64,000 bases of DNA from Siphonodentalium dalli (Eukaryota > Mollusca > Scaphopoda > Gadilida > Siphonodentaliidae), in NCBI GenBank assembly GCA_032622095.1, contig CP136065.1, positions 243,907,474 to 243,971,473 of the forward strand, written 5' to 3'. The translations under genes and the position numbers were made by a program. Of this stretch, positions 5,502-58,149 are shown piece by piece (position 1 is the first letter of the stretch; every line of letters begins with the position of its first letter). The notes under the pieces were generated by a model that saw only the letters and a program-made list of their open reading frames with translations, did no database searches and was not told the origin of the DNA.

Positions 5502-5505
5502 GGTC

Positions 5506-20632: not shown

Positions 20633-20646
20633 GTTCCATATCAGGT
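20633..20646. other. 14-bp filler at the duplication junction
   Basis: The 14 bases repeat the end of unit 1 ('gttccatatcaggt'). They sit between 'gttccatatcaggta' and the start of unit 2. Such templated filler is typical of end-joining repair or template switching. Confidence 0.8.
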
Positions 20647-32066: not shown

Positions 32067-33161
32067 TTATACCAAATTTGTGGCAGGAATCCAACTGTCA
32101 AATTTTTTAGGATAACCAGCCCAATGAACTTTAATTTCTCTAACTGATTTACCAGCAACTTTTCTTGAACGCTTACCAACAACTGATTCAATTTCGTAAA
32201 CTTTATTATCTTTTATATGTTGAATTTCTTTACCATAAAATGATCCTGCGATGTTTTCACCATCTAAATCTACTAATTTGTAAGTTAATGGTGTACTTTT
32301 ACAAACTCTACTAATTTTGAACATTTCTTTTGTCCAATTTGGAAGATATCCTTTATCAAAAGTTCTCTTTGTTTTATTTATTCTAACAAAATCTCCAACT
32401 TTCAAGATCTTATCTTTTTTCGTTTTTAACTTTCCATAAAGATTTCTGGAAACTTCAATTTCATTTTCTCGAGTTACTAAAACTGGTGCCATCTTAATAC
32501 TTCTATGAAAACTTTTGTTGTAAGAATTCACAAAATCGTGCAAAACATCATTGTATTTCAAAGTTTGATTATGTGTAAAATATTTCCACATCTTTGTTTT
32601 CAACGTCCGTTGAAAACGTTCAACTATACTTGCTTTTGTCTCTGGATTCTCTGTTGTGAAAAAATGAATTTTCTTAGATTTCAAAAATTGTAAAAATAAT
32701 TTATTTTTGAATTCTGAACCTTTGTCAGATTGAAATGAAACAGGTTTTCGTTTTGATGATTTGAGAATTTTCTGAAATGTTTTAACTAAAGTTTTACCAG
32801 TTTTGTCTTTAATTTTTTCAACTCATGCAAATTTTGAGAACACATCAATAACACAAAATAAATATCTGTAATTGTCATTGTGCTTTTGCGAAGTTTGCAA
32901 ATCTGCCAAATCAGCTTGCCACTGAATATCAATTCCTGCAACAATAGTTTTACGTCTGCGAAATTTCCGAACAATTGGTTTGTGCAAAGTGTATGTTTTT
33001 TGCCATTGTAACCATTTTTTAACATCTGAAAGTTTAATTTTGTTTTTTGTTTCTTTCGCATTTTTAAAAAGTTGATTTGCTCCACTGAAACCACCAACTT
33101 CTTTTGGATTGTAGTAAATTTCAGTTAGAAGTTTGTCAAATTTTATGTAAGTGGGGACCAT
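32067..33161 (-). pseudogene. Retroviral-type (rve) integrase of element B, one in-frame stop
   Basis: One frame of about 364 codons holds the whole enzyme apart from an in-frame TGA at 32823-32825. The catalytic triad is visible: Asp in 'GIDIQWQADLADL', Asp in 'SFQSDKGSEF' and Glu in 'ETKASIVERFQRTLK'. The C-terminus has an SH3-like segment ('KVGDFVRINKT') and a chromodomain ('VREIKVHWAGYPKKFDSW'). Polinton integrases insert the element and create 5-6-bp target duplications (family knowledge). The start lies within the 3' end of the upstream gene (19-nt overlap). The stop sits just after the first-Asp strand 'FCVIDVFSKFA'. Confidence 0.88.
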
Positions 33162-33863
33162 CCTTTCAAAATAGATTTTCTGGTTTTAGGAAAACTTTGA
33201 GGTGTGAAAATATCAACTGAACGTTTTCTTGACTTGCCACTGCTAGGAGTTGCATGAGGTGTATGAAACTCATCACCAGTGTGACCTTCTTTTAAATGTC
33301 TTTGTATCCACAACCATCGATTCCTGTTACCTACATAATCTTGTGGTACATTAAGTTCCCCCAATCCGCGTAGGAATGTTTCATAACCAACTGGGTCAAA
33401 ACCTTTTCGGTGACGAACAACATCGTTTATCAAATCAATTATATTTGATCCAGTAACTGTTTCTGTTCCATAAATTAATTGTCCACGATCATCCCATCTA
33501 AGTTTAGGATTAGTTGACAACAATGTTAAAATTTGTTGTGCTTTACCACGAAGTTTAGATGGCACACTTTCCAATATATGTTCACTCATTTTCCCAAAGT
33601 TTTCAGATAACTTTTGTTCAGGTAAACTGAATTTTGAATTTAAAGATTTTTGTGAAGTTTTCAATTTGTACAAATTTTCTCCAAATAACTGACTTTTCTG
33701 ATTCAGAAATATTTTTATCATAAACTGATTTCAATTCTTTGTAAGAATCTGAAACATTTGAAATTGCAGGATCCGGAGGTAATTGAGGTTTATTCATTTC
33801 TGACATTTTCCATTGTTTGAAATCTTCCAACATTCTGAATGGTACAATAACCATTTTCTTCAT
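33143..33863 (-). pseudogene. Conserved 'MVxVP' protein with PxLxWDDRG domain (element B), frameshifted
   Basis: The start is 'MKKMVIVPFRMLEDF'. The frame shifts between about 33720 and 33650 and continues with 'VPSKLRGKAQQILTLLSTN', 'LRWDDRGQLIYG', 'NIIDLINDVVRHRKG' and 'GLGELNVPQDYVGN'. This compact domain is widespread in invertebrate Polinton-like loci as an unnamed protein (from memory). A Ser/Arg-rich tail ends 'SILKGWSPLT'. The element A relative at 5812-6114 keeps only the N-terminal part. The function is unknown. Its position between the hydrophobic proteins and integrase is conserved. Confidence 0.65.
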
Positions 33864-34923: not shown

Positions 34924-35565
34924 TTATACTTTTGAATAAATGACAGGACCTCGGTCATTAGCTGTCAACCATTTATGGAAAATATCAGTTCTAATTCGAA
35001 AATAATTTTCTGTTCTAGGATGAAAATCTACTAAAACATATCCATGATTTATTGAAGTTGCATCTTCGTATGCTTGTTTCAAATGATTGATTTGCATTTG
35101 ATGAGCCAAAACTTTTATTTGATTTTTATCTCGAACGCTTTGAAATAAAACCATGTAGTGTGCATTCAAACTTATAGTTCTGCTACTTTTTGATTTTTGG
35201 AACATGTTTTGAGTAATGTAAATTATTGAAGCATTTCGATGGTGACCTTTTCTAGTAAACCAAAGCATTATTTTGTCTTCATCTTGTTCCCCCATCATGT
35301 CATCGAAAACAACAAGATGAGGAAATGATACAATTTCCTCATCATCGTCTGGAATACCATCGATAAACTCAACGTTATCAATTTCTTTTATACGATTGTA
35401 TGTGTCTTGCCATTCTTTGTAACACCAAACTATTTTCTTTGGTGGTGTTTGGAATAAATCGTGTTTAAATTCAATAACTTTTTTAACAAATTCTGTTTTA
35501 CCTGATCCACTAGGTCCGCTGATAAAGAAATTACACGGATGTTGGAAAAGTAAAGATTCTTCCAT
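34924..35565 (-). CDS. FtsK/HerA-type genome-packaging ATPase of element B
   Basis: This is an intact 213-residue frame. Walker A is 'FFISGPSGSGKTEFVKKVI' (residues about 13-31). Walker B is 'HLVVFDDMM', a sensor strand is 'SIIYITQNMF', and an arginine-rich C-terminus is 'FRIRTDIFHKW'. The length and motif spacing are normal for Polinton packaging ATPases, which belong to the A32-like clade. It would translocate DNA into capsids built from the neighbouring MCP and penton. Of the enzymes in element B, it alone has no visible lesion. Confidence 0.92.
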   Translation of the reverse strand: MEESLLFQHPCNFFISGPSGSGKTEFVKKVIEFKHDLFQTPPKKIVWCYKEWQDTYNRIKEIDNVEFIDGIPDDDEEIVSFPHLVVFDDMMGEQDEDKIMLWFTRKGHHRNASIIYITQNMFQKSKSSRTISLNAHYMVLFQSVRDKNQIKVLAHQMQINHLKQAYEDATSINHGYVLVDFHPRTENYFRIRTDIFHKWLTANDRGPVIYSKV

Positions 35566-36202: not shown

Positions 36203-39200
36203 TCAACATCTGCATCCGTATGGATATGTGTGAATACCATTGACGAGTTTTCGTTTTGTGTACACCGATCTGAAAGTTTTGGTTTGACACTCACTAATCA
36301 GTTGATGGTTCTTTTGTCTTTTAATTCTGGAAGGATACTCAACAACAGTTTTGAAATTTTCACGATCATTAACACATTGTACCATTGTTTCAAAATAAAT
36401 TTTTGACTTGCGCTGTAATCAAGAGTGATACCTTTTACCTTACATTTGGTGTATCTTCTCCCATCTTTGATGTATTCATATCCGTAGTTCTTTGGCCCAA
36501 GTCCAACAAATTTGACAATCTTTGCATCTGGATGTTCGTCGCTCCATTTCCCCAATCTTCCTTCGATAGTTTTGATGTTCTTCTTTGATGGATCACTGAC
36601 ATACATACAGCTGTCTGTATCAAAATACAGCACTCTATCTCCAAGTTTTTAAAAAACTTTATACAATTGTAATCTTGCATACGCTGTAACAAAAGAAGCA
36701 ACAACAACATTTGCTGAATGATGAGGTTCAATATTATCTAAAATATCAACATAATTTACCAGAATGAATTTGTCACCATCAAGAAGTGTAACATTTTGAA
36801 CAATTATATTGTTACTAGTAAGCAATTCAAAATAACGTGATGGCTTATCCACATACTCTGTTTTTGACATCAGATCTCTTTGTGCATTCTTACCCCATAT
36901 ACAATTAATCATAATTTTAGATATTTGGCGTTTTCCTGGATTCTTCTCGATGTTCTCCAATTTTATACCCTCAGCTGCATAATAATCCTGTACAAACTTT
37001 TGCTTCTGTTCTTCTGTCCCAACACCAAATGGATAACCACTACATTCCTGTTTGATCTTTAGATGTTTGTCGATATAGGATTTGTATATTTAATCTGTCC
37101 AATCTGTCCAATGCCAAATTTGGTACACATCAAGTATTTTGTAGCCAACATCCATTGCTTTGAATAATTCTGGCGTGGTCCACACTCCGGTTATAGCTCG
37201 ATCTTCTTCTGAATGGTTACATGTCTCGTTCTCATTGATGGCGCAAGTTTTGCACAAAGTTAAAACCATTTTGTTGTTACAATGAATCGGTAGAACTGGA
37301 ATATACAATTTCGATGGTGGTAAAATTGTACATTTAACAAGCCCCGCATAGTCTCTAATGTGTTCTTGATCGATCTGCTCTTGGCTCAAAATTTCTGGAT
37401 GTCCAACAGGGTAGAATTTATATTTGTTGCAAAATGGATACAACGAACACACATCGATGAACTTGATTTCTTTTGTGGAATCTTGATCAATTTCCTCGTA
37501 CAATTTGATGGCATTTGTATGTCCACCACCAAACAATGCTTCTCTTGGCAAAATGGGGTCTCGATGTTTGTAGAAAGATTCCATTTGTTGTTTGAATTTC
37601 ACATCCAATTTCATTCTTTCGTCGATCTGATGTCCCCAAAGTGATTCAACTCTGTAACAAAGACTTTCCAGTTCATCTTTCTTCTGTTGAGTTCTTGTAT
37701 ATAATTCTTCCATGGTGAGCATCGTATAGGGATTCTTGTATTGTCTGTTGTTGTAACATTTTGGACATCCATGAAACAGACATCCATTCATCTCAAAAAC
37801 TGTTCTTGTGGCTTCCTCATATCCATCGACGTAGTGTCCACCAATCTTGATTTCTCCTCCATTCAAAGCATGCTTAATTGTTATCATACGTGACAATGAT
37901 AGATGTTGAAGCCAACGTATCGCTTTCATGGAATAGTTTTTAGCACATGGGTATCCACCATCTGGAATGACTCCAATTGTTTTCTCTGGCATTGAATTCT
38001 TCCTCCATGCCAAATTGCAAACTTGCGCCAATGTTATTGACTCAATGAACGGGTCAATCTGTTCTGTTTCCAATATGTATTTCCTGAAATTTCCACATCC
38101 ACGGCGAAGAATATCCACGTCTGATTTGCAGTACTTCTCCATCTCTTCTTGGAAGTTGAATATCACGTAATTTTCTATTTTCTCATTGTACCATTCAAAG
38201 AATTTCTCTCGATTTTCCACGCTCATCATGTCTGGTTTGTAGTAATCAGAAGCCAAGTAAGGTCCAATGTAATTTTGAAACTTTGGTGAATTCGCCCAAT
38301 GTGGAAAGTGTCCTTTCGTCATCTCATTCAGCTGAAAAGTTTGTGGAAACTTTGAAAGTGGCATCATCAGAAAACTCAGAGAATCAATAACTTTCACGCT
38401 GTTGCATTTTAAACTGAGAATTTTGTTTCCATTCATGATCAGTTCTGGTTTATGAATTCCACTTTGTATGAGTGCTTGAAGTAGAAACTGTGCATCGTAT
38501 CCCTGAGCATTATGTGCTATTGCAACACATCCTTTGTGATCTTGGTGGAATAACCAGTTTGTGAGTCTGTTAAAACGTTGTCACCCTTGAATACAAATTC
38601 TCTGGAATCCAGTCCGCATGTTTCACATTTTTCGTCGATTGGTTTGCACATGCAATCTCCACAAGCGGTATGTGCAACACAGAAGTTTGGAATATGAACA
38701 CCTGTGTCTTGTCTGCATTCAAAGTCAAAGAATACATATGGAATCTTTGCAGGTTTCTTTTCCGGTGATTCATATTTTGGAATGTAGCACCTGTGATCTG
38801 CTTCAACGATTTCTTTGCAATGTTTGCATTTCTTCAACCCCGCACATATATGTCTGCTTGATTTATTGGTGAGAATTTCTTCATCACAATTGTTGCATAG
38901 TTGAACCAAATCACATATTTTTCTTTTCTGTTTTCCTTCCGTCTTCAAATGGTTGTCGAAACAAGATTTACTTCTGAATGATCGTCGACACGTTCTACAC
39001 TGTCAATGACCAGCATGCACAAACAAATCTGCATCGATGATCGCCACGACTTTTGAATCCAATGTCACAGAATTCGCAGTAGTAGCTGGTGCCTAGAAAT
39101 CCTTTGATTGATGTTATGGTGTCGAAGTGATTGTTGTTGTAGTAGATGTGTACACATTTGCTCTCCGAACACATTTCTGCAGGTTCAAATAGAAATCCAG

Positions 39201-40143
39201 CGCCAGCAAATTCATTGTGAATTTTCACAACATATTCTGGATACAATATTTCTTGAATCTTGTGGAACTCATTGATACTGCAAACTGTATCGTGCGGAAT
39301 GCCAGCACGGTTGAGTAGATTTTTTGCGGCATCTGTTTGTGCTGTGTATATTGATTGTCTTATTCTTTTCCATTTCTTTGACCAGCACGCAGATCCATCA
39401 CTATCTGCCTTACACATACCGACGACAATAGATCTTGCCATACACATAACATCATCAGCATTTTCAATCCGGACAATACTTCTTTTTACTTTTGTCAGCT
39501 TGTTCTTGTCTGCAAATGGTCCATAATGTAGTGAGTGTCGTGTACCACCTTCCGGAATATCTGTAACGAAGATTCCGAAATTGAGTGCACCGTCATGAAT
39601 TGTAAAGTCTGCATTTGATTGAACTACATTTTGAATATTATCCATGAGTGTCCCACCATTCAATTCACTGGCTTTTGTGAATGGAATGAAAATGCTCATA
39701 TCAAGTCCTGGATGATTTATCGTAACTCTGATTCTTGTCTTCTCATTTGCTGAACATTTCTGTTTCAATTCTTCTGTCAACTTCTCAAATATCTCTGGAA
39801 TGTTCTCGATTGGATCTGTAAATTTCTCGAATTTCACACCAAATTGTCGTGCTGCTGATTTAAATTTTCTGGAAAATTTCTCCGAGTTCAGCTCCAATTT
39901 GAAATATTTTGTTGGATTGAACACAACACGCTCTCTAGCCAGACTTCTCTTTCTCTTCCCACCAATTTCTCTATTCTGTCTTCGACCGCGTCCAATCTGC
40001 CCATCACTAGAACTTTCTTCACTTTCTGCCCCATCAGTTTCCATATCACTCTCTTCAATAACTGCAGGCCTTGGTCTTTTTCTAACAATATCTTCTTCGC
40101 CTGTGGCGTCGTCTGAAACAGGTCTTTTAATTCTCTTAAACAT
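36203..40143 (-). pseudogene. Protein-primed DNA polymerase B of element B (adintovirus-like), broken
   Basis: The start 'MFKRIKRPVSDDATGEED' lies inside the terminal inverted repeat. It is followed by 'DDVMCMARSIVVGM', a Cys/His finger region ('YYCEFCDIGFKSRGDHRC'), Exo I 'VFFDFECRQD' and Exo II 'IAHNAQGYDAQFL'. Exo III is 'YCKSDVDILRRG', motif A 'FIDVCSLYPF', motif B 'MINCIWGKNAQ', motif C 'YFDTDSCMYV' and then 'VGLGPKNYGYEY'. Lesions are frameshifts near 38990, 38530 and 36395, and in-frame TAA at 37090 and 36649. It differs strongly from the PolB of elements A and C, for example in motif A 'SLYP' and motif B 'WGK', so B belongs to another lineage. Confidence 0.9.
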
Positions 40144-40431
40144 TTTTTTCTTGAGTTTTGTCAGCAAAAAATATTGCGACTGGCTTCTTCGGAGTTGAAG
40201 TGTAAAGTGTAGAATTACACCTGCTTTTATTGCATTCGATGCTATAAAAGCAGGTGTAATTCTACACTTTACACTTCAACTCCGAAGAAGCCAGTCGCAA
40301 TATTTTTTGCTGACAAAACTCAAGACAAAAATGTTTAAGAGAATTAAAAGACCTGTTTCAGACGACGCCACCAGCGAAGAAGATATTGTTAGAAAAAGAC
40401 CAAGGCCTGCAGTTATTGAAGAGAGCGATAT
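40045..40431. repeat. Head-to-head terminal inverted repeat (about 190-bp arms, 3-nt centre)
   Basis: The left arm (about 40045-40235) is the reverse complement of the right arm (about 40239-40431) with only a few mismatches. The arms are separated by the 3-nt centre 'tcg' at 40236-40238. Each arm contains the same gene start, 'MFKRIKRPVSDDAT', reading outwards. That of the left arm is the PolB start (minus strand, 40143) and that of the right arm begins at 40331 (plus strand). This is what two abutting terminal repeats of a linear, protein-primed element would give. A circular or concatemer junction and a later fold-back duplication are both possible. Confidence 0.9.
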
Positions 40432-40930
40432 TGAGCTACATAAAGAAGATTAAAAAAAATCTACACAACCACTGACTAGAAAAATTCAAGATAATCTTGT
40501 CGAATTGAGACAGATCTCTACCGATTTGTTTAAACTTTGTAACAAAATGCAATGGCAAGAGAAACAAGAGAAAAACAAAGCTGATAAAAATTGGAAACCG
40601 CCATATGGTTACTGTTACAAATGCGGCCAAGACACCCATTGGTCCTTCCATTGTAAAGTAGATTTCGGCGACAAAAAAAATGTGAAAACTATACAAAAGT
40701 CTACAAGCAGTAACAATACAAGAACAAATGCAGATATCAAAACTGAAGAGATGTCTACAACATCAGATTTTTCCAAACAAGACCGATCTGTTGATCCTAC
40801 GAATGATTCACAGAACAAATCTGAAGATAAACATCCAGAAATTGAAAATTCCAAGAAAACTTCCAAGAAAAAGAAGCTGAGACCATTCTACATTCCAAAA
40901 ACAGATAAACGAATCGACACAAACAATTGA
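40331..40930 (+). pseudogene. CCHC zinc-knuckle protein sharing the PolB N-terminal tag, one in-frame stop
   Basis: The ATG at 40331 gives 40 codons shared with PolB through the inverted repeat, then TAA at 40451. The same frame continues through 'KIQDNLVELRQISTDLFKL' to the zinc knuckle 'CYKCGQDTHWSFHC' (CX2CX4HX4C) and a Lys/Ser-rich acidic tail. It ends 'RPFYIPKTDKRIDTNN' at 40930. CCHC knuckles bind single-stranded nucleic acid, as in Gag proteins. A poly(A)-like 'aataaa' follows at about 40945. The shared 5' end explains the tag. The downstream part may be a separate gene starting after the stop. Confidence 0.55.
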
Positions 40931-41018
40931 AAATTATGTTGTGTGAATAAATTATGAATTGAACAATCGTGTTTTGTTTTTTCAGCTATGAAAGAGTAAC
41001 CTTTTGGGAAATGTGGGT

Positions 41019-41034
41019 GGCCCTGAAAAGGGCC
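41019..41034 (-). terminator. Histone-type 3' stem-loop (minus strand)
   Basis: On the minus strand the sequence reads GGCCCTTTTCAGGGCC, preceded by AAAAC and followed by ACCCACA. This matches the metazoan histone mRNA 3' stem-loop (6-bp stem, 4-nt loop, ACC-type flank) recognised by SLBP. It lies 60 nt after the stop of the 41094-41390 gene. Confidence 0.88.
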
Positions 41035-41093
41035 GTTTTCTCTTTTCCAGGATTCATAAGAATTCTGACAAATCAGGATATATCCCGTTAGGA

Positions 41094-41390
41094 TTAATTG
41101 TCACAGACCAAATAGGATTTGATCTGAGCAAAGCTGTCAATCGCTGCATTGCACAGATCTTTCTTCTTGATCTGTGACAAGATCTCCACGAGATCAAGAT
41201 TGCTTGATTCTTGAACATCACATACTTTAGGCAATGGTCGTCGGCGAGCCAAAAAATCTCTTATCATCTGCTTCTGAACCATACTTTGTTTAGGAGAATC
41301 CTGCCATTTCCTATATCTTCTTATTTCCGTCACCTCTGACGAATCTCTCTTCCTCCACAACTTCTTGAGAAATTTCTTTAAAGACGGCAT
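41094..41390 (-). CDS. Small basic protein of unknown family, histone-type 3' end (cassette 1, minus)
   Basis: This is a 98-residue frame from 'MPSLKKFLKKLWRKRDSSE' with a basic N-terminal half and 'SNLDLVEILSQIKKKDLC' near the end. I recognise no family. Its stop is 60 nt from a canonical histone stem-loop at 41034-41019. It is transcribed divergently from 42005-42223 across a 614-bp spacer that is nearly identical to the spacer of the second pair. The shared control sequences at both ends make it a credible gene despite its size. Confidence 0.55.
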   Translation of the reverse strand: MPSLKKFLKKLWRKRDSSEVTEIRRYRKWQDSPKQSMVQKQMIRDFLARRRPLPKVCDVQESSNLDLVEILSQIKKKDLCNAAIDSFAQIKSYLVCDN

Positions 41391-42004
41391 AATGAATGAA
41401 GTTCACTGAAAAAGTGAAATTATTTGTATACATTTGACACGGGCGACAATGAAACCACATGTCGCATTGGCGTTAAAATTGACAAATATTTCCTGACGTT
41501 GTGTTTTTTCAGAGACGGATCACCATGCATATTTTTCTTGATCATTATTGCATAGCGATCAAACAAATGTTTTTAATATCGTTAGATCATTATCTATTAT
41601 TTGGTACACATGATTGATATATTTATTACCTCGTTAGGCAAATATGGAATGTTTTTCTAGTTTTTGTTTTTGGAATTGTACATATTTTATACATAAAAAC
41701 TGAACACAAGAAACATACTGAACATTTTTCTTGATCATTGCATTTTGATAACTTTACTTGGTCATCGTTTATGAACGAAGATGAATTCATATGTTAAAAC
41801 ATCTTAATTAATTGTATATACTATCATGAATTTAATCTATAACATATCGAAATGGTGAAACTAACAGATAATGCACTGAAAAGAAACACAACGTCAGGAA
41901 ACATTTGTCATTTTTAACGTCAAAGTATTATGTGCTTTCTCTACCGCCCGCGCAATCGTGATACAAGTTCAAGACGGATCTTCAGGCTTATTCTGCATTC
42001 AAAG
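41391..42004. promoter_or_regulatory. Bidirectional promoter region, cassette 1
   Basis: The spacer between divergent starts is about 97% identical by eye to 43034-43660 over some 550 bp. It contains an imperfect inverted pair of about 37 bp: 'gcgttaaaattgacaaatat' plus 'ttcctgacgttgtgtt' near 41472, and its reverse complement near 41888-41925. The right side ends 'ctgcattcaaagATG' at the plus-strand start. The symmetry suggests both directions use the same factors, as in histone gene pairs. Confidence 0.7.
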
Positions 42005-42223
42005 ATGACTGCAATACCCGAACCCTTGATGGCGATACTGAGAGGAACTATGGGGATAACACCGCAGATAATGTGGGGCAGGTACGCAAGAGAAGTGACC
42101 GACCGTTCAAAGCTGATCATGCAAAAAAGAACAGCAACCATACCAACAGAGTCTAGCTGTCCTATTTTATCTGAGGCGGCGCAACAAAAGCAAAATTCTC
42201 ACTCTGAGAAAATTGGGGAGTGA
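42005..42223 (+). CDS. 72-residue protein of unknown family, histone-type 3' end (cassette 1, plus)
   Basis: The ATG at 42005 is chosen because 'ttctgcattcaaagatgact' is conserved before the start of 43661-44125, while the frame upstream is promoter DNA. The product reads 'MTAIPEPLMAILRGTMG' and ends 'QQKQNSHSEKIGE'. Only 'MTA' is shared with the other plus-strand gene. Two histone-like stem-loops follow within 65 nt. No family is recognised. Confidence 0.5.
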   Translation: MTAIPEPLMAILRGTMGITPQIMWGRYAREVTDRSKLIMQKRTATIPTESSCPILSEAAQQKQNSHSEKIGE

Positions 42224-42243
42224 ATTTTGATGTCGTACAAAAC

Positions 42244-42286
42244 GGCCCTTTTCAGGGCCAAAACAAAAACGGTTCTTTTCAGGACC
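42244..42286 (+). terminator. Two tandem histone-type 3' stem-loops
   Basis: GGCCCTTTTCAGGGCC lies at 42244-42259, 21 nt after the stop codon, and GGTTCTTTTCAGGACC at 42271-42286. Both are preceded by AAAAC/AAAAAC. The second has a G-T wobble in the stem and is followed by AACCAA. Tandem copies are unusual. Confidence 0.85.
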
Positions 42287-42497
42287 AACCAATTTTTTCA
42301 AAAAGAAAAACTTTTAGCATTGCTTAAGAACTAATAATGTTCATTGTACCCTATGTTTCGTTTTGAAAAAATCACGCCACAAATAATTTAAAACAAAATA
42401 TACTTGCAAATATTTGTTGTTGAATAAATTATGAAATGAACAATCGTATTTTGTTTTTTTTCAGCTATGAAAGAGTAACCTTTTGGGAAATGTGTGT

Positions 42498-42513
42498 GGC
42501 CCTGAAAAGGGCC
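42498..42513 (-). terminator. Histone-type 3' stem-loop (minus strand, cassette 2)
   Basis: The minus strand reads AAAACGGCCCTTTTCAGGGC with the closing C and then ACACAC. It lies 23 nt after the stop of 42536-43033. The 100 bp around it are nearly identical to those around 41019-41034. Confidence 0.88.
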
Positions 42514-42535
42514 GTTTTAAATTTATCATCTGACT

Positions 42536-43033
42536 TTAACACCGTTTTGTGTTTTTCTTATATCTTGACATATCTTTCCCATGAGAACCGAGAGCTTTTG
42601 CGAATTCATCACAATTCTCTGTATCTCTAGATTCTTTACAAGGAAGATGAAATCTGACTTTTGTCTCAGTAGAAGCCTTCATGACACTCTTAGGTTGTTT
42701 TTCTTTCGTCGCCGATGATTTTCCTTTTTTGATCTGTTTCTGCTCTTTCGATCTCTGAACATCATGAACATCATGCACCCTAATTGGGATATCTATCTGT
42801 TCTGCAACGAAACGAAGATTCACTTTCACTTCTTGATGCGTTACTTGCGTTTTCACGTCAATATCCCTGCGAAGGCATCTCAGTTCATCTAAAATCGCTT
42901 TTAAAATGAGTGTATCACCACCTATAGTCATTGTCGTATTAGCTTGGCCTGTTGACTGTGGCGCAGCATATGTATTCTGTGCAACAGGACTACTGTATAT
43001 CTCACTCTGAAGAAATTCTGTTAACGGATCCAT
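42536..43033 (-). CDS. 165-residue protein of unknown family, histone-type 3' end (cassette 2, minus)
   Basis: The ATG at 43033 ('MDPLTEFLQSEIYSSPV') is preferred to one 11 codons upstream because promoter homology ends nearby. The centre is helical ('ILKAILDELRCLRRDI'), then 'VKVNLRFVAEQIDIPIRV', and a Lys/Ser-rich region with 'SKEQKQIKKGKSS'. It shares no visible sequence with the minus-strand gene of cassette 1, although flanks on both sides are nearly identical. A Lys-rich tail suggests nucleic-acid binding, by inference. Confidence 0.55.
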   Translation of the reverse strand: MDPLTEFLQSEIYSSPVAQNTYAAPQSTGQANTTMTIGGDTLILKAILDELRCLRRDIDVKTQVTHQEVKVNLRFVAEQIDIPIRVHDVHDVQRSKEQKQIKKGKSSATKEKQPKSVMKASTETKVRFHLPCKESRDTENCDEFAKALGSHGKDMSRYKKNTKRC

Positions 43034-43660
43034 CTCTTGATAGCAATGCAATGTAAGGTTGATCAAATTCGAAAATATTTGTATACATTTGACACGGGCG
43101 ACAATGAAATCACATGTCGCGTTGGCGTTAAAATTGACAAATATTTCCTGCCGTTGTGTTTTTTCAGAGACGGATCAACATGCATATTTTTCTTGATCAT
43201 TATTGCATAGCGATCAAACAAATGTTTTTAATTTCGTTAGATCATTATCTATTATTTGGTACACATGATTGATATATTTATTACCTCGTTAGGCAAATAT
43301 GGAATGTTTTTCTAGTTTTTGTTTTTGGAATTGTACATATTTTATACATAAAAACTGAACACAAGAAACATACTGAACATTTTTCTTGATCATTGCATTT
43401 GATAACTTTACTTGGTCATCGTTTATGAACGAAGATGAATTCATATATTAAAACATCTTAAGTAATTGCATATACTATCATGAATTTAATCTATAACATA
43501 TCGAAATGGTGAAACTAACAGATAATGCATTGAAAAGAAACACAACGTCAGGAAACATTTGTCATTTTTAACGTCAAAGTGTTATGTGCTTTCTCTACCG
43601 CCCGCACAATCGTGATATATGTTCAAGCACGGCAGCGAACAATTTATTCTGCATTCAAAG
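43034..43660. promoter_or_regulatory. Bidirectional promoter region, cassette 2
   Basis: It is colinear with 41391-42004 ('catttgacacgggcgacaat', 'cgttaggcaaatatggaatg', 'ttatgtgctttctctaccgc'), with scattered substitutions. It retains the same inverted pair (near 43125 and 43546). Each side leads into a different coding sequence from cassette 1. Confidence 0.7.
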
Positions 43661-44125
43661 ATGACTGCTGTAAACATAACCGATCTTGACGAGATAATGG
43701 TCCGTGGGGTATACTGTAAAGCAGTGTACGGCGAAGAAATATCTCTATTTTGGAAGGCACTCAGCATTGGGATTTACGGGGCGACCGATGGATGGATGGT
43801 TCTGAGAGATGCGGCCGTTGAACTGTACTACACAGAGAGGGACGAACTTGGTGCGTCGGCACAAGACTTACGACACTCACCACTTTTGGCCGAATCAAGA
43901 TTGATGGTTGAATTAGCGGCGACTGTTATACAGCGACCTATCGTCATGTTTGATGCTACCAAAGGCGGCTACAAATCAACACCAAGATTCAAGTCATCAA
44001 TACCTCTAGTGTGGATCCCGCACGTTTGCCACGAGCATTATTGTGAATGCGAAATATGGATGAGGAGAGGAGACAAATCAATTGAAGTTTTGGCGAACAA
44101 AGAAGTTCAATGTGGCGGATTCTAA
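43661..44125 (+). CDS. OTU-like (vertnin-like) domain protein with a replaced catalytic Cys, histone-type 3' end (cassette 2, plus)
   Basis: This 154-residue frame starts 'MTAVNITDLDEIMVRGVYC'. The segment 'ISLFWKALSIGIYGATDGW' followed by 'VLRDAAVELYY', then 'ELAATVIQRPIVMF' and 'SIPLVWIP', follows the order of OTU-fold domains (DGNCLFRALS, LR helix, ANVLxRPIxV, closing strand). The usual catalytic Cys position is Ser and the preceding Asp-Gly is absent, so an active deubiquitinase is unlikely. The end, 'VCHEHYCECEIW', is Cys/His-rich. The assignment is moderate to weak. The stop is 20 nt before a perfect histone stem-loop. Confidence 0.5.
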   Translation: MTAVNITDLDEIMVRGVYCKAVYGEEISLFWKALSIGIYGATDGWMVLRDAAVELYYTERDELGASAQDLRHSPLLAESRLMVELAATVIQRPIVMFDATKGGYKSTPRFKSSIPLVWIPHVCHEHYCECEIWMRRGDKSIEVLANKEVQCGGF

Positions 44126-44144
44126 ACTATAACAAAAATAAAAC

Positions 44145-44160
44145 GGCCCTTTTCAGGGCC
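44145..44160 (+). terminator. Histone-type 3' stem-loop
   Basis: AAAACGGCCCTTTTCAGGGC, then CACCA, is the textbook histone 3' processing signal including the ACCA flank. The purine-rich 'gatcgaaaagata' 9 nt further could act as the histone downstream element that pairs with U7 snRNA. Confidence 0.92.
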
Positions 44161-44307
44161 ACCAACTGATCGAAAAGATACTCTTGATAGCTAATTGATA
44201 TTTTCCAAAGTGAGATTTTCCTTTTGAAAAAAATAATTCTAAGTCCATTTTTCATTTTTTCGATCAGAAATGTCACATCAATGACAGGAACATCTATCCT
44301 CAGGGGG

Positions 44308-44697
44308 GAAACTATGGCCCAGTACCCCCCAGACATGGGCACTATGGCCCAGTACCCCCCAGACATGGGCACTATGGCCCAGTACCCCCCCCCCCCCAGA
44401 CATGGGCACTATGGCCCAGTACCCCCAGACATGGGCACTATGGCCCAGTACCCCCCCAGACATGGGCACTATGGCCCAGTATCCCCCCAGACATGGGCAC
44501 TATGGCCCATGTCTGGGGGGGTACTGGGCCATAGTGTCCATGTCTGGGGGGTACTGGGCCATAGTGCCCATGTCTGGGGGGTACTGGGCCATAGTGCCCA
44601 TGTCTGGGGGGTACTGGGCCATAGTGCCCATGTCTGGGGGGTACTGGGCCATAGTGCCCATGTCTGGGGGGTACTGGGCCATAGTGCCCCCCATTAC
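44308..44697. repeat. Inverted arrays of a 30-bp repeat (giant hairpin)
   Basis: About six to seven copies of 'actatggcccagtacccccc' plus 'agacatgggc' run forward to about 44505. They then run as the reverse complement to about 44690, the centre being 'atgggcactatggcccat'. The poly-C length varies from 5 to 12. The 30-bp period makes six open frames that read 'TMAQYPPDMG' or similar, which is an artefact of period 3n. Confidence 0.95.
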
Positions 44698-48414: not shown

Positions 48415-48546
48415 CTAAAAAAAAAATTACATACCGGCGATAAGTCAAAGTGTGAAATGGAAAATTGCTGATGTATATCTCGTTCCGGATCAATATCAAG
48501 CGGGGTATAATGAATTAAGTAATATGATGTTTGTGTCAAATGAAAT

Positions 48547-48927
48547 ATGGATTATTTTGAGCATAATAGTGATTATTTCAAAATTGTCGATCAGCTAATG
48601 GAACATCATTCGGAAGTTATATGTCTGAGAATTCAACAGTTAGCTCAACGAGATTGTTTCGGATGCAGATACAGTAAAGGCAGTCAACGAGATCATGATT
48701 GTATCAATGAAACATTCAGTGAAAAACAAGAATATTACTTCGATGAAGCATTTAATGAAACGAATGTATAAGAACTAATTGATCAATTCCAACTACTTAA
48801 TGCTTACATAGGAGATAAACACAAAGTTATTATTCAAACATTTCTCAACGACCAACAATGGATTCAACAAAGTCAACCTACATCTGGCTGGAGACGTACA
48901 GTTCTGAATATAATTGAACAGTTATGA
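48547..48927 (+). pseudogene. CxxC...SQRxHxxC protein, copy in A', one stop
   Basis: It is nearly identical to 1717-2097, with TAA at 48769-48771 and continuation in the same frame to 48927. It keeps 'DCFGCRYSKGSQRDHDC', so both Cys of the CxxC pair are present here although Tyr replaces one in element A. This supports the metal-site reading of the motif. Confidence 0.75.
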
Positions 48928-49440
48928 ATGTTTCATCAGAGGATTCTAAGGATGATTTCCTTCAGAGATACCATTACAATCCTATAAATCCTGGAGCGTA
49001 TAGTGGCGTATAAAGTGTTACAACATACAGACGCCCCGCATATTTCCAAAGCCTATTTACGAAAATGGCTTAACAACCAAGATACACATACATTGCACAG
49101 ACAAGTGCGTCGCAAGTTTAACAGATTAAAAATTGTGACATCAGGTATCGATGATATGTGGAATATGGACCTACTTTCTGTGCAGAATTTATCTGAATAT
49201 AACGATCAATATCAATATGTATTGGTGATTATTGATGTATTTTCCAGGTTTTTGTTCTGCCAACCTATCAAATTTAAGAATGCACAATCCGTGCACAAAG
49301 GCTTAAAATATGTACTGAATCAAACCCTAGCTCATCAAATCTATCCAAAAAAACATCTTACTTTATGGATGCCTATGAAAAGGCGACTGAACAACTATTC
49401 GGTTATTTATTGATTGACTATCGGATAATCGCTATCGCCT
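48924..49440 (+). pseudogene. Integrase 5' part fused to the ATPase 3' end by deletion (A')
   Basis: The integrase segment ('HISKAYLRKWLNNQDTHTLH', 'GIDDMWNMDLLSV', 'LVIIDVFSRFLFC') has a 10-nt deletion near 49003. It runs into the ATPase C-terminal segment at about 49321 ('TLAHQIYP'), where the frame shifts again. The position that is a stop in element A (2442) is Gln here. It has no Walker motifs and no catalytic Glu. Confidence 0.82.
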
Positions 49441-49499
49441 AAGAACGGATATATTCCCTGGAGAAAACAGCATAATATTTGCCGAAAATTAAGGTCATG

Positions 49500-49886
49500 G
49501 TTGACGTTGAAATTACTCAGTCAATTGCGGAACAATTACGTCGCTTCAACAAGAAAATTCGCCGCCTATTTCTGAAAAATCTATCAAAAATACAGTTGAA
49601 ACACGTAGTGGAAGCCGTGTTGAATGTGCTTGTTGGTAACATAAAGATAACAAAAATACAGCAGCAGAAATTGAGACGATACAAGGGGCGAATGAGGTCT
49701 GTAACTCAGAAAGATATTAGCATTGCTAGAAGAAGGAAGTTGCTCTCACACTGCGCTCAAGTGATACCTCTCATACTTGACACTGTTACGGAATATCTAG
49801 TGAATGGCGAGAGAACTTATTCTGATACCAAAGGAGAGATACGAACAAATGATGATGAAAGAACAGGAGGAGATTCACCACAGTAA
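49500..49886 (+). CDS. Small conserved Polinton protein (basic, hydrophobic C-terminus), intact in A'
   Basis: The frame is open from 'MVDVEITQSIAEQLRRF' through 'RRYKGRMRSVTQKDISIARR' and 'VIPLILDTVTEYLVNGER' to 49886. The element A homologue is broken near 5675. The following 'MARELILIP' frame continues to about 50000, where a deletion cuts it. Confidence 0.6.
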   Translation, partial: VDVEITQSIAEQLRRFNKKIRRLFLKNLSKIQLKHVVEAVLNVLVGNIKITKIQQQKLRRYKGRMRSVTQKDISIARRRKLLSHCAQVIPLILDTVTEYLVNGERTYSDTKGEIRTNDDERTGGDSPQ

Positions 49887-50000
49887 AGATCAGTCACCTC
49901 CTATGGGCGAAGACAGTACTATAGAGCCAGAGGCTGCGCTGTAGAGACTGTGCAGAAGGTGATAAATGATAGCACACCTCAAGAGGAGGAAAACTCAATG

Positions 50001-50670
50001 GAGAACCCTAAACCCGCATGTTGGTAGGAACGCAGTTGATCCCGATCAGATCGGTTCAGACCCACTGTTGTCCACACAACCTTAACTCTACCTGGATAGA
50101 AGGAAAAAATTCAGTGAATAGCACCCATTATTAAGAACTATGAGTTCTTAATCTACTGTCAGTCTCTAGCGAACCACGTGAGCTCTTGAGATTGAACAGC
50201 GGAGGCACTCTAAACACTGTGTTTACTACTTAAATACAAGATTGCCGTAAATACATATTTGTTTTTTTAAACACTTACCTATTCGGTGTCGCTGTCGGTC
50301 TGTATCAGAATCAGCGCCACTCTGAAATAAGAAAAACAAAAAATAAAATAAAAATAATCTTTAACCCCCCACACACACACCCAGCACCCCAAAAAAGGAG
50401 GGGGGCCCCTCTACCGCCCCCGGATGTGGGATGTTTTTTTTTTTTTTACACACCTTTTCTTCTTCTCTGCCCGACTTTCGTCAGCCACCATCTCCTTCAT
50501 TCTCTTCTGAATAAAAGAAATAATAATATAACATCGGCTGGTGGTGTGTGAGGACAATTGTCGTATCATGCAAGCTAGGTCCCCATAATAAGTTTATTAC
50601 GATGTCGAATAATTGTAATTAAAATAATTGAATTTGTAATTCTGTTAATTGCAATTGTTTACTCCGGGTA
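50001..50670. repeat. Copy of the dispersed noncoding block of element A
   Basis: It is colinear with 11665-12465 with many indels. A 13-bp direct duplication ('gatcccgatcaga' region, 50039) and a CA-rich tract near 50372 are specific to this copy. No gene. Confidence 0.75.
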
Positions 50671-51020
50671 ACAATGGCAAGGTCAGGGACCATTGCCACG
50701 TCACTAGCCGCTACCTCGGCGCTGCCCATAAAAAATGTAACCTTTACAGAACAAAAAGAGGTGGAAAGTTCATACCTGTAGTATTACACGGATCCAGTAA
50801 TTTCGACACACATTTGATTATGCAAATATTGGGTTCATTTAAAGACATGAAAGTAAGTTGTATTGCAAAATCAACTGAGAAATATGTGACATTTAGTCTG
50901 GGAAATTTGCGTTTTATAGATAGTTACCAATTCCTACATGCATCATTACAAACTCTAGTGGAAAATTTAAAAGACGATACGACTCATGACTTTAAATTTC
51001 TCAAGGACGAGGGGTTGGAA
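50671..51020 (+). pseudogene. PolB fragment (Cys/His insert to Exo II region) in A'
   Basis: It encodes 'VRDHCHVTSRYLGAAHKKC' and 'LHGSSNFDTHLIMQILGS' in one frame, matching 7921-8240. It keeps a shorter A-run near 50727, and 30 nt near 50970 that are deleted in element A. The fragment is displaced relative to its normal order and ends at the env remnant. Confidence 0.85.
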
Positions 51021-51036: not shown

Positions 51037-52724
51037 GAATCAATTAACTGATGTAAAGGTATTTTAGTAACACCTTTCAATGCGATTGGTAATGTAAAAT
51101 TCCTAAAACGATCAATTCTGTCCAAGACAGGTTTCCAAAGGTAGAACTCGGAAAGATTAAATTTAGGAAGAATCTCGTTATCAAACGCATTTATAAGCTG
51201 AGAGTTGTCACCTGAGAAGTGACTCAATTTTCACATTCGGGGCAGAAGCGATACACGTAGGTTGTAAAGTTAGTAATCCAATAGGCGGAAATAATGTCAC
51301 TTCTTGAGAACTTACATAATCTTTACACCTTACCGAGAAAGTTATTGGTTTAGCTAAGCTAATGACAAAGAGTCCAGTGTTTACATTTCTGACATATGGT
51401 AGTTTAACGCTCGGTTGCACTTCTATAATGCACTGGTCTTTTATTGACCTCGTGTCATTCATGAGTAATGCGATAGGGCATGGTTTATCGTTGTAAAGCG
51501 TTCGAATAACAACATCAAAAGGACAGAATGGCAATGGATTCATTAAGCAGATCGAGTTATCGGGTAATGTTATGAATTGAGTACGACCAGCATTTATTAT
51601 TAAGTGTTTATGGTCAAACCGATATTCAGCAATCATTTGTCTTAAATCTGAAGATAAAGATTTTTTATTAGGTGTGTATGGGAACGAATGAATCCTAAAG
51701 AGTTCAAATTTGTTCCTTATGTTGATCAGAGGAATTTTCACTAGTACAATTAGTCGACTGTTTGTAAACAGAGTAGAACACATGAAGTTTTGATAATACT
51801 TCCACAATTCAGTGTTGGGATCAAATGGTAATTTAAGATGATCTGGAAGATGTTTGTCCAAGTCAGATAACACTCGTCGTAGGGTATTAATACGAACCAC
51901 ACTTGGAGCAATTCGTTTGGTAGTTAAGATACTTGTTTGTGTATGCATGTGTTCTACATGAAATCTAGCAGCAGTAATCATTTGAGTTATCTCTGTAATT
52001 CTTAGGTCAATATGATTATGCAAATTAGCGTAATATTCCAATGTCGTTAATTTGTGTGATTGCTTGTTGAATACCTCAGTGATTACATTCTGAATATATT
52101 TAACTGTTTCAACCAACTGATTAGTTTTCATTCTATTTTCACGGATGTAATTCCGGGAGACGTCCATTAGGCTAAAACTTTCTTTGAGAGTGTGCTCAAT
52201 TTTTCGTTGATTATTAGCCAATTTATTAATGTTATTATTAATATTATTGAGGTCGTTCTCACTGACTGTTCCAAACAGCCAGGATAATCCTTCTCCTATG
52301 AAGGGGAGCAGCGACCTTTTAATCTTATGCGGCGAGTCATCGTGAAGTGTTTTGAATTCGACAAATTGCGAAACAACTTCTAAGTATTCGGTGTTTAGTA
52401 TCTCTAAGTTTTCACTGAAACTTGCGAAGATCTCGTCGAATTGTTTAGTTGTACCTGTCAAGTTAAACGACTCATGTCCGTTTGTTTGTATTGTTTTTAA
52501 CTTTGTTCGGTCCAACTCTTTTCGAGCTATTTTTATTTGTCTTGACATGGATTTCAAGTTGTTTTGAAATGGTTCTAAGTTTACTACGAAACCTATTGTC
52601 CAATCTGCATTGGTCATATATATATCTTTAAGTTTTTGGAAAATCACATTATGTCGTGTCACAATAATGCTATTCGTTTGACCTAATTCTAGTGAGATTA
52701 AGGTCACACAGAGTACTAGTATTG
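51037..52724 (-). pseudogene. Envelope fusion-like glycoprotein (baculovirus F / errantivirus Env type), truncated
   Basis: The main frame (52724-51208) starts at a likely splice acceptor (aatttcag|CA) and first reads a hydrophobic signal-like segment, 'ILVLCVTLISLELG'. A basic cleavage-like site is followed by a fusion-peptide-like 'LLPFIGEGLSWLFGTVSEND' and a heptad-rich region ('INNNINKLANNQRKIEHTL'). This is the order typical of Ty3/Gypsy env and baculovirus F. Near 51215 the frame shifts. The tail 'PKFNLSEFYLWKP' is in another frame until about 51040, where element A' abuts and the membrane anchor is lost. It is an old, broken copy in the genome. Confidence 0.82.
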
Positions 52725-53396
52725 CTGAAATTAGTCACATGATTAGAGTGATCTCGTAGGTTAGGGTTGGGGTATGTCTAGTTGTTGTGTCTGGTTGCCT
52801 TTGTTATCCTTGTAATTGTAACTATTTACCTAGCTTAAATGCACTCGTTGTTGGAGATTTGCAACTCTCCAAAACAAATATTAATTCGAACATTCCCAAC
52901 TATGGTATTATTTAGATTGGCGAATTTCGGGCGTGCAATGGTACTACTTAAATTTAAGTCAATAAATTTAAATTTCCCTTCTTACTTTTTCACCTATCTA
53001 TTTTTACAAAGAAGGAATCAGACTGCAGTCACAGGGAGGAGTTCAGACAAAAAATAAATATTTGTTCATTTGTTTGAAAGAGGACAGGTCTTCTGAAAAG
53101 GTGTACGTGACAGACGTACTCAGGTCAGTTCTTCAAAAGACGTATACAGGTCAACACCGTGCGGCCGCACATGTCAACGCTGCATAATCCTCCCTAACAA
53201 GGAATTCTTTAGCAGAGCTAAAGAAGGCAAAGAATAAATGAGCAGCGGGGATAAACAAACCGCGGAATAAGCTCGGCCATTAATGGGACCTTGTAAATAA
53301 TCAAGGACATGCAGTAGAAATGCATGTGATTACGGCTAATCCATATCCATTAATGGAAAAGGGAACAACAGACTATTCGACAGGGTAGTCAGTTAT
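52725..53396. other. Spacer between env and integrase remnants
   Basis: No coding frame is convincing. A SINE-like or LTR-like structure was not found. The splice acceptor for env lies at its left edge. Confidence 0.5.
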
Positions 53397-55139
53397 TTAG
53401 AGATCAGTCTCTAGAAGGGGCATAACTGTCAGTGGTTCAATGGTAAGCAGGCGACCAGGTTCAAACTGAGATTCATCTGAGTCGTCCTCTGCTATTGATA
53501 ATTTGGCATGAACAGATTCAATGTCTGCAGCCATTGTGATGTCTTGTAATCCCAGATTGGGAGGTACATCATAATCGTCGGTAGATGCGTTATATGCATT
53601 GTGCATATCATCACTGTACTCTTCGGTAGAGGCACTATAATCATTCTGAGCCTCTTGAGCTAGTTTACGAGCACGCAGCTTGGTGCGAAGCTCGTTAAGG
53701 GGTATATCGTCTTCGTCCTCCGAATCTGATCTGACCTGGCGTTTCATTGTACGAAGACGCTGAAGAGGTATGTTATCCTCGGAGTCGGGGTCAGAATCAG
53801 ATGAGGAGGGGGGTACAACATAGCGCTGCGCTCTGACAGCAGCTTCTTTGTCAGTTTTGACAGGCAGAGTCCAATCTATGGCAGCTCTGCGGAGGAGGTC
53901 AGCATGACTCTTAGTCACACGACCTGTAAGTTGATTACGGATGCGGTATGAAACAGGTGACCGCTTTTCAATGACGCGATAATATGGTTGCCACTTAAGG
54001 GCTAACTTATTTTTGGTGGGATTGTCTTTGTAATAGACAGGGTCGCCCACCTCAAAAGAGTTATCGGTCGCCTTCTTATCTTGGTAGGTTTTCTGTCGCT
54101 TGTTAGCAGACTGTAGATGACGATGCATCAACCGAAATGAACGATGCATTTCTTGATGTGCGACCTTGTGAAAGTCACCACCCACATACTTGTGATGAGG
54201 GCTGAGCAAATTGTCAATTGGTAAAATGGGGTCGCGTTGATATAGCAGGTAGAATGGCGAGTATTTAGTAGATTCATTCACACTGAATCGTATACTAGCC
54301 AGTGTGTGGGGAAGATACAGATCCCATGTCTCAAGTTGATTATTAAGCAACTTGGAAAGAATGTCATGCATAGTCCGGTGAACGCGTTCAACTTTGGCGT
54401 TACTCTGAGGATGATAATAAGAAGAAGTGACGTGATGAATACGAAGTTCTTCTAAGACATCATGCATGACTTGATTAATAATCTCGGTGCCATTATCAGT
54501 TACCAGTTCCAGCGGTGCTGAGAAACGAGGAAAAATCTCACTGAGTAACAAATTGGCAATAGTGGAGGCAGATTTGTCTGGTACTGCAAAACTTTCTGGC
54601 CAACCACTATAGAGGTCGATGAAAGTGACGATGTAGACGTTCCCACTTAACGTCGATAGGTAGGGTCCAATTAAATCGAGACCAATTTTAGCGAAGCGGT
54701 AAGGTGCTATGTCTGTTTCTTGAAGAGGTGATTTCTTTTTCTGAAGTTTTCGACTTTGGCAGGGAATGCATTTTTCACAATATGCATATATATCTTTGTA
54801 AAGATTCTTCCAATAATACTTGGATTTGATTGAGGAAAACATTTTATCGGTACCTAGATGCCCATTATCATCGTGGTACTGTTGCATAATGTGAGTTTGT
54901 AAATGAGAAGGAATACACATGCGAAGGACAGGGTCATCCTTGGCATGACTAATATAATGCAAGATGTCATTGATAAGTATGTATTTTTCCCAAATGGAGG
55001 GTGGTGGATTGTTGCAATTATATTGTTTCTTAAGCTCTACTATATCAGCATCTTTATCTTGTTCTAGAGTCATGTTGAAATCAACATGTGTGAGTTGAGA
55101 TTGACGAGAGTAGTATGTAGACGAGATAGTCTGGAACAA
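53397..55139 (-). CDS. Ty3/Gypsy Pol C-terminal part: integrase with long tail
   Basis: This 580-codon frame lacks reverse transcriptase and RNase H, so it is 5'-truncated. Integrase is complete. The HHCC zinc domain is 'HDDNGHLGTDKMF' with 'CEKCIPCQ'. The catalytic core has Asp in 'FAKIGLDLIGPYL', Asp in 'ELVTDNGTEII' and Glu in 'SNAKVERVHRTMHDIL'. A GPY/F-like region follows ('KLALKWQPYYRVIEKRSPVS'). The C-terminal 150 residues are acidic and Ser/Asp-rich with repeated 'SEDEDDIPLNELRT' and 'DSEDNIPLQRLRT' modules. It precedes the env remnant on the same strand, as in errantiviruses. Confidence 0.88.
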   Translation of the reverse strand: MFQTISSTYYSRQSQLTHVDFNMTLEQDKDADIVELKKQYNCNNPPPSIWEKYILINDILHYISHAKDDPVLRMCIPSHLQTHIMQQYHDDNGHLGTDKMFSSIKSKYYWKNLYKDIYAYCEKCIPCQSRKLQKKKSPLQETDIAPYRFAKIGLDLIGPYLSTLSGNVYIVTFIDLYSGWPESFAVPDKSASTIANLLLSEIFPRFSAPLELVTDNGTEIINQVMHDVLEELRIHHVTSSYYHPQSNAKVERVHRTMHDILSKLLNNQLETWDLYLPHTLASIRFSVNESTKYSPFYLLYQRDPILPIDNLLSPHHKYVGGDFHKVAHQEMHRSFRLMHRHLQSANKRQKTYQDKKATDNSFEVGDPVYYKDNPTKNKLALKWQPYYRVIEKRSPVSYRIRNQLTGRVTKSHADLLRRAAIDWTLPVKTDKEAAVRAQRYVVPPSSSDSDPDSEDNIPLQRLRTMKRQVRSDSEDEDDIPLNELRTKLRARKLAQEAQNDYSASTEEYSDDMHNAYNASTDDYDVPPNLGLQDITMAADIESVHAKLSIAEDDSDESQFEPGRLLTIEPLTVMPLLETDL

Positions 55140-57827: not shown

Positions 57828-58149
57828 TCCCCCCCCCCACCGCCCCTATCCCACAAGGTTCTATTAAGAACCAACCAAAAAAAACTATAGTTAGTACACC
57901 CCCCCCAATCAGGGGTAGGGGTCCAACGCTGGTAAAAATCAATTCCATGATGGAGTTGACTTTGCAACACAAAATGCTGACTGAAGGTGTAAACTCCTCG
58001 CCGATAATTAGTGATTTCAACGTGCACAATGACTTATTCTTCCAACCGAAAATCACAGATACAGCTATAAAACTAGTAATAGTCTTAACAGCTTAAACGA
58101 ATTCAAACCCTAATCTATAATGGGGGGGGCAAGAGCAATACTTACAAAG

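Follow-up and report, generated by a model that had tools for sequence, protein, structure and literature searches.

The analysis concerns a stretch of 64,000 nt from the genome of the scaphopod mollusc Siphonodentalium dalli (contig CP136065.1, positions 243,907,474 to 243,971,473 of the forward strand; hereafter the window), in which two divergent pairs of open reading frames (ORFs) between 40.9 and 44.2 kb combine histone-type promoters and 3' ends with proteins that are not recognised as histones. The first pair consists of ORF A (-) and ORF B (+), the second of ORF C (-) and ORF D (+), and both lie next to the genes of a Polinton/adintovirus-like element. The anatomy of these cassettes and the homology of their flanks are evident from the DNA itself. 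Each cassette would be built from a core promoter common to all four, a short leader, a coding sequence that varies from gene to gene, and a 3' end of the histone type. With a probability of roughly 0.56, we read A to D as Polinton/adintovirus-like accessory genes, held in histone-type, SLBP/U7-dependent and S-phase-coupled cassettes that the element would have duplicated.

Hairpins, promoters and 3' tails of the cassettes

Four exact copies of the hairpin GGCCCTTTTCAGGGCC and one variant were found, every one of them on the coding strand of ORFs A to D. The fold takes up 16 nt, with a 6-bp stem and a 4-nt loop, and 22 identical letters are common to the four exact hairpins. A preliminary description of this region, made from the letters alone, had held that each of the four ORFs ends before such a hairpin; this applies to all four genes on the coding strand, with 59, 20, 22 and 19 nt between the stop codon and the first hairpin of A, B, C and D, respectively, and the number of hairpins is five instead of four, as B is followed by two in tandem. 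The variant lies 11 nt past the first hairpin of B and has 2 mismatches to the search pattern, its stem being preserved by two-sided changes. Dinucleotide shuffles gave an expectation of 0.04 such hairpins for the window, against 5 observed, and a maximum of 1 in 100 shuffles; of 11 other element genes examined, none had one within 250 nt. The covariance search that had been suggested as a check was run with the Rfam Histone3 model (RF00032; gathering score 34 bits), which spans the hairpin and the stretch downstream of it. The gathering score was passed by three of the four genes, A, C and D (E 1.4e-8 to 5.2e-8), and the two hairpins of B stayed below it.

When six stems were compared, five from the cassette hairpins and a sixth, looser stem at 57.85 kb, standard pairs occupied 36 of 36 stem cells and two pairs were changed on both sides. 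The share of paired cells was reached by 11 of 500 shuffles; since few stem sequences are available, the shuffle controls were only modestly exceeded. At the last of these positions (57852-57896, +), a further site resembling a histone stem-loop scored 28.6 bits, which is under the cut-off, has the loop ATTA, and starts its stem 28 nt 3' of the stop codon that closes a reading frame for an acidic protein. Rfam matches of the mir type, which fell under the cut-off and inside palindromic repeats, were set aside.

The spacers of the two pairs had been estimated to be about 97% alike, and they are indeed near-identical, with a measured identity of 96% over 600 columns, mismatches that become denser near the ends, and homology that extends 8 nt inside the plus-strand coding sequences. 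The spacer also matched its own reverse complement (E 1.1e-19) and is thus an inverted repeat, so that one core promoter is common to all four genes; the promoter halves of A, B, C and D can be aligned with each other. Both this self-symmetry and the single core promoter for all four genes are new relative to the preliminary description. The common promoter block is made up of AACGTCAGGAAAYATTTGTCAWTTTTAACG, followed by ATGTG.TTTC, then CGCCCG, then a TATA-like stretch that lies about 40-52 nt upstream of the ATG, and in C one letter differs within ACGTCA. Immediately 5' of the ATG, A, B and D carry the word CATTC, which resembles what we take to be the histone cap-site consensus.

Behind the coding sequences, the tails of A and C were 92% identical over 117 columns, and the tail of D, read in the opposite orientation, matched the block common to A and C at E 2.8e-8, a value that includes the hairpin. 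Matches between the tail of B and those of A and C were weak (E 5.6e-4 and 1.2e-3, hairpin included), and the first match of B was hardly more than the hairpin itself. The earlier statement that the surroundings of the stem-loops match is thus correct for A, C and D, whose tails are alike past the hairpin, and holds weakly for B. An AAAAG-type purine block, a putative U7 site, was observed 12-13 nt past the stem in A, C and D and past the second hairpin of B, and the U7 site of histone pre-mRNA is expected at about that distance 3' of the stem. Neither AATAAA nor ATTAAA was present within 250 nt of the stop of A or C. Similarity between the A/B and C/D pairs ends close to the gene boundaries. 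Positions of all these features, together with those of the neighbouring genes, are given in Table 1.

Table 1. Cassette features and neighbouring element genes, in positions of the window.
Feature	Positions	Strand	Description
ORF A	41094-41390	-	98 aa, basic (22 K+R)
ORF B	42005-42223	+	72 aa when read from 42005; ~97 aa from the frame's first ATG
ORF C	42536-43033	-	165 aa; LPCKE (LxCxE motif) at residue 130, then acidic residues
ORF D	43661-44125	+	154 aa when read from 43661; 168 aa when read from 43619
Stem-loop 3' of A	41019-41034	-	exact GGCCCTTTTCAGGGCC; Rfam Histone3 40.8 bits, E 1.4e-8
Stem-loop 1 3' of B	42244-42259	+	exact 16-mer; 21.4 bits, under cut-off
Stem-loop 2 (variant) 3' of B	42271-42286	+	31.0 bits, E 6.1e-5, under cut-off
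Stem-loop 3' of C	42498-42513	-	exact GGCCCTTTTCAGGGCC; Rfam Histone3 40.1 bits, E 2.5e-8
Stem-loop 3' of D	44145-44160	+	exact GGCCCTTTTCAGGGCC; Rfam Histone3 39.3 bits, E 5.2e-8
Bidirectional promoter/spacer of A/B	41416-42012		inverted-symmetric; 96% identity to 43071-43668
Bidirectional promoter/spacer of C/D	43071-43668		96% identity to 41416-42012
3' tail block of A	40927-41039		shares 4 bases with the end of the CCHC ORF, whose AATAAA lies inside the block
3' tail block of C	42404-42518		duplicate of 40927-41039, 92% identity; plus-strand AATAAA inside
Cleavage-type region and purine-rich downstream element of A	40995-41018	-	CCCAAAAGGTTACT; alignable stretches 3' of C and D, loosely 3' of the second hairpin of B
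Type B DNA polymerase	36298-40143	-	broken by stops and frame changes
Integrase with C-terminal chromodomain	32067-33185	-	two pieces, stop between
A32-like packaging ATPase	34924-35565	-	Pox_A32, E 4.3e-8
CCHC zinc-knuckle ORF	40454-40930	+	zf-CCHC_3, E 4.2e-4, under cut-off

Coding sequences between the shared flanks

That the coding sequences lack mutual similarity, as had been noted by eye, was borne out by the comparisons: similarity of the coding DNA was not above that of shuffles for A and C or for B and D (p 0.37 and 0.54), and no protein match was found among the four. Pfam gave no match for any of A to D at E 10, and PHROGs gave nothing better than E 0.2, which was a match of B, with none for A at E 1. 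In phmmer searches against PDB, A listed 37 sequences up to E 10, none of them a histone and the best a ribosomal protein (E 0.41), D matched only two ribosomal proteins, at E 1, and B and C listed none. Single-sequence structure models were unusably poor (predicted local distance difference test, pLDDT, of 39 for D and 48 for A).

Across 500 shuffles of the region no ORF was longer than 159 aa, a length exceeded by C (165 aa) and by the 168-aa form of D. In the same shuffles, 154 aa was never reached as the second longest ORF, and 98 aa, the length of A, was reached as the third longest in 0.2%. A codon-usage score trained on 12 element ORFs favoured the frames of B, C and D given in Table 1. 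Among the 81 window ORFs of at least 70 aa (11,904 aa), the L.C.E motif occurs in C only. In LPCKE and the acidic residues behind it, C is reminiscent of the LxCxE oncoproteins of small DNA tumour viruses, the motif alone being compared, and LPCKE is a candidate binding motif for the pocket protein Rb.

By eye, D resembles the OTU fold, with Ser at the position of the catalytic Cys and the His retained, which we regard as a lead only. Pfam was without a match, pairwise scores against two OTU domains gave p 0.003 and 0.31, a two-sequence profile gave p 0.51, and comparison with the N-terminus of the element's polymerase gave 0.42; the assignment was not adopted.

The neighbouring element and related systems

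The polymerase, ATPase and integrase genes of the element lie to the left of the cassettes on the minus strand, and the polymerase gene and a CCHC zinc-knuckle ORF directly adjoin them. DNA_pol_B_2, which stands for type B polymerases of the viral/organellar kind, matched 37093-38436 (E 1.3e-27) and, under the cut-off, 36652-37089 (E 5.9e-5). Pfam had no match for 36301-36648 and 38520-39002 and none relevant for 38998-40143, where the polymerase assignment is by position; an OTU-like domain at the N-terminus of the type B DNA polymerase (PolB) was likewise without a Pfam match in 38998-40143. We take this polymerase to be protein-primed. In the retrovirus-like integrase, the piece 32070-32822 matched Chromo above the cut-off (E 1.1e-5) and rve under it (E 3.1e-5), and the piece 32826-33185 had no Pfam match. 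Pfam also gave no match to a major capsid protein (Hexon). A capsid-candidate ORF shows 30% identity over 202 aa to an ORF of the window's other element, and element ORFs without a Pfam match show similarity to the second element at 3.5-5.5 kb; these Pfam-silent ORFs presumably resemble capsid genes, and the name major capsid protein (MCP) is our assumption.

A palindrome at 40040-40434, with 196-nt arms of 97% identity, a 3-nt centre and TATA-like boxes near that centre, duplicates the start of the polymerase gene in inverted orientation, including about 35 codons, and the CCHC ORF sits in frame behind the stop that ends this inverted copy of the polymerase N-terminus. Judged from its layout, the palindrome would form a third divergent promoter, serving the polymerase and the CCHC ORF. 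The CCHC ORF in turn terminates within the tail block of A (4-bp overlap), where its AATAAA, 16 nt past the stop, is also located. Of the observations that assign the cassettes to the element, this interlocking is the strongest, and it is not proof. Terminal inverted repeats enclosing the cassettes were not found; the best inverted match of 20-36 kb with 36-52 kb had E 0.045, and the 14-mers shared between 23-30 and 43.9-49 kb were poly-A only. The proposal of a cassette used by a virus-like element thus gains the adjoining polymerase and CCHC ORF and the AATAAA in the tail block, and it goes as far as adjacency.

Directly after the D cassette, at 44300-44692, a 30-bp G/C-rich minisatellite inverts on itself into a large palindrome. 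Parts of the region of the first element (1706-2501, 5318-6002, 7920-8219 and 11665-12217) recur at 48536-50968 with 83-99% identity, as a second partial copy. At 19149-22127, a 1.49-kb direct repeat of 99.5% identity covers the 3' part of an ORF whose only Pfam match is Endonuclease_7 and which looks like the other Polinton-like element's polymerase. At 15128-15284, a palindrome whose arms measure 75 nt adjoins ORF 15517-16890 (-), which has DUF3504, phage-integrase and QRICH1 matches under the cut-off and is presumably Crypton-like. Within 51208-55073 (-), a Gypsy-type integrase (H2C2, rve) is followed by a 469-aa ORF that has no Pfam match and resembles an envelope protein.

To our knowledge, animal histone-type 3' ends have been regarded as exclusive to the replication-dependent histone genes. 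Like metazoan replication-dependent histone pairs, the locus has divergent pairs, short ORFs without evident introns and near-identical repeated flanks, and like the genes of those pairs, its genes show a perfect 16-nt stem-loop soon after the stop, a cleavage-type region and a purine-rich stretch, the latter a putative counterpart of the histone downstream element. Unlike them, it contains no recognised histone and four unrelated proteins, its flanks adjoin a Polinton-like element, and one gene, B, carries two tandem hairpins. The preliminary description had spoken of histone architecture with non-histone cargo, and we concur, given the Rfam matches, the shared promoter halves and 3' ends, and the lack of a significant core-histone match in the window. 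PMC5011920 names non-polyadenylated mRNA, the stem-loop and a purine-rich element after it as hallmarks of replication-dependent histones, and PMC6210712 places the palindrome near the stop in histone mRNAs from one bivalve.

With adintoviruses and Polintons (Mavericks), the element shares the type B DNA polymerase, the integrase with chromodomain and the A32-like ATPase. It differs from these groups as described in that its accessory genes carry 3' ends of the histone type and a common promoter, and neither the OTU-like PolB domain of adintoviruses nor terminal repeats were detected here. In PMC11071296, adintoviruses are defined by a PolB with an OTU-like N-terminus together with Hexon, they also carry an integrase with a C-terminal chromodomain, and candidate oncogenes are present in most of the mammal-associated adintovirus species. 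Adomaviruses, a group that mixes with adintoviruses (one of them from a clam dataset), have 'Histoid' genes for a histone-like protein (PMC11071296). The link to histones is thus common to both cases, but in adomaviruses the protein is histone-like, whereas at this locus it is the regulatory flanks that resemble those of histone genes, and not the proteins.

Among the matches listed in searches of titles and abstract openings in open-licence PMC, we found no report of Polinton or viral genes that end in the histone manner and none of a shared promoter on Polinton or viral accessory genes; two of the papers listed mention SLBP alongside a viroid or a herpesvirus (PMC6827988, PMC6713331). Contig scans were carried out with exact words (six 8-residue words for each protein), which reach close kin only. 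In viral contigs, the hairpin scans gave one match, in a contig without an Rfam match and with ORFs that look phage-like by eye, the protein-word scans gave 1 word match for D, 5 for a polymerase piece and 0 for the ATPase, none of them confirmed, and the promoter scan gave no match. The hairpin scan of genome contigs gave one match, in a contig of a bacterial metagenome-assembled genome with no core-histone match at E 1e-3, and this was judged to be chance.

Alternative readings and a proposed mechanism

Several observations weigh against reading A to D as accessory genes of the element. The length of B, 72 aa, was reached as the fourth longest ORF in 5% of the shuffles and is attainable by chance, and the codon-usage score did not favour the frame of A. 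L.C.E appeared in C in 1.7% of shuffles, and 7% of shuffles produced it in at least one of A to D. Both hairpins of B are under the Rfam cut-off, and the number of two-sided pair changes in the stems was reached by 94 of 500 shuffles. AATAAA is located 200 nt past the stop of B and 12 nt past that of D, and AATAAA and ATTAAA are both missing too from the 250 nt behind 5 of 11 other element genes, so that the absence of these signals in A and C is not distinctive. The polymerase and integrase genes are split by stops, the polymerase also by frame changes, and this copy of the element is therefore decayed. Since no terminal inverted repeats were found, the edge of the element is not fixed and membership of the cassettes is by adjacency. 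No relatives or second copy were found in the low-sensitivity contig scans, which by their reach make missing relatives say little.

The cassettes could instead form an array of orphan or fast-evolving host genes with histone-type flanks, beside or into which the element inserted, a possibility that we consider unlikely. The right edge of the element, which is unfixed for want of terminal inverted repeats, would agree with this, histone 3' ends belong to the host's own machinery, and the G+C content of B (0.47) and D (0.46) is above that of the 12 element ORFs (0.29-0.42). However, A (0.40) and C (0.39) fall inside the element range, the end of the CCHC ORF and its AATAAA both lie within the tail block, and the inverted copy of the polymerase start precedes that ORF. 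If the cassettes were such a host locus, they would be histone-like in regulation and uninformative about viruses. A role at the DNA level, in which hairpins and repeats are recombination or exchange sites for swapping coding sequences between fixed flanks, is in our estimate very improbable. The similarity of the pairs that ends close to the gene boundaries and the 22 letters common to the four exact hairpins would suit exchange sites, but the similarity of A, C and D runs downstream into the region of the histone-processing signals, the stem variants retain their pairing, and orientation on the coding strand after every stop is not predicted by it.

A and B might also descend from an H3/H4 divergent pair that decayed or diverged past recognition, leaving hairpins and promoters as residues; we regard this as quite improbable. 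The stretch EIRRYRK in A is H3-like, with shuffle p values of 0.02 and 0.0125 in two pairwise scores and 0.013 against a three-sequence H3 profile, and the stretch LR..GIT in B looks H4-like by eye. Comparison of B with H4, however, gave p 0.955-1.0 pairwise, 0.21-0.57 for the extended reading of B and 0.70 with the profile. The four core histones had no significant tblastn match in the window; the best (E 0.24, H4) overlaps the start of C, outside A and B, and none lies inside A or B at E 10. Histones are also missing from the PDB matches of A, and none of the four proteins was found to have a histone fold. The histone profile round comprised 24 tests, in which an unrelated element ORF scored p 0.008 against H4, and the marginal score of A was not accepted as H3 homology after multiple tests. 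Degraded histones in A to D were likewise rejected, as tblastn, the pairwise scores, the H3/H4 profiles and phmmer against PDB gave nothing significant apart from this marginal A/H3 score. Stem-loops left over from degraded histone genes had been named at the outset as a finding that would refute the cassette reading, and the similarity searches gave it no support, bar the weak H3-like stretch in A (p 0.0125-0.02). Decay would also not be expected to leave matching flanks beside open frames.

If A to D are accessory genes of the element, one histone-type transcription unit, with its promoter and 3' end, may have been acquired in a single event. Inverted duplication would have turned it into a divergent pair, a step that the younger palindrome beside the polymerase gene illustrates for another promoter, and tandem duplication would have given two pairs, in which the coding parts would have been swapped or rapidly replaced and the flanks would have remained alike. 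The SLBP/U7 machinery would cut the RNAs after the stem, leaving them without poly(A), and these RNAs would be stable only in S phase. The S-phase, SLBP-dependent expression put forward in the preliminary description is thus a reasonable supposition. Accessory output would in this way be matched to the host DNA synthesis needed by the element's polymerase, and the LxCxE motif of C would suit a protein that prompts entry into S phase. The arrangement suggests, and does not prove, that the element ties its cassette genes to the DNA-copying phase of cells. A tentative extension, which we think rather unlikely as a whole, would be a family of animal DNA viruses with an S-phase feed-forward module, in which expression from a captured cassette would be limited to times when SLBP is present, at least C among the accessory proteins would drive S phase and the module would thereby strengthen the state on which its own expression depends, and the fixed flanks would act as sockets for exchanging cargo genes.

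If the reading of A to D as cassette genes of the element is true, the SLBP/U7 pathway would be capturable as a portable cell-cycle switch, and the locus would be a natural case of S-phase-limited expression of non-histone genes. It would also explain how the element, given its need for host nucleotides, could be coupled to the cell cycle by way of mRNAs that carry no poly(A) tail.

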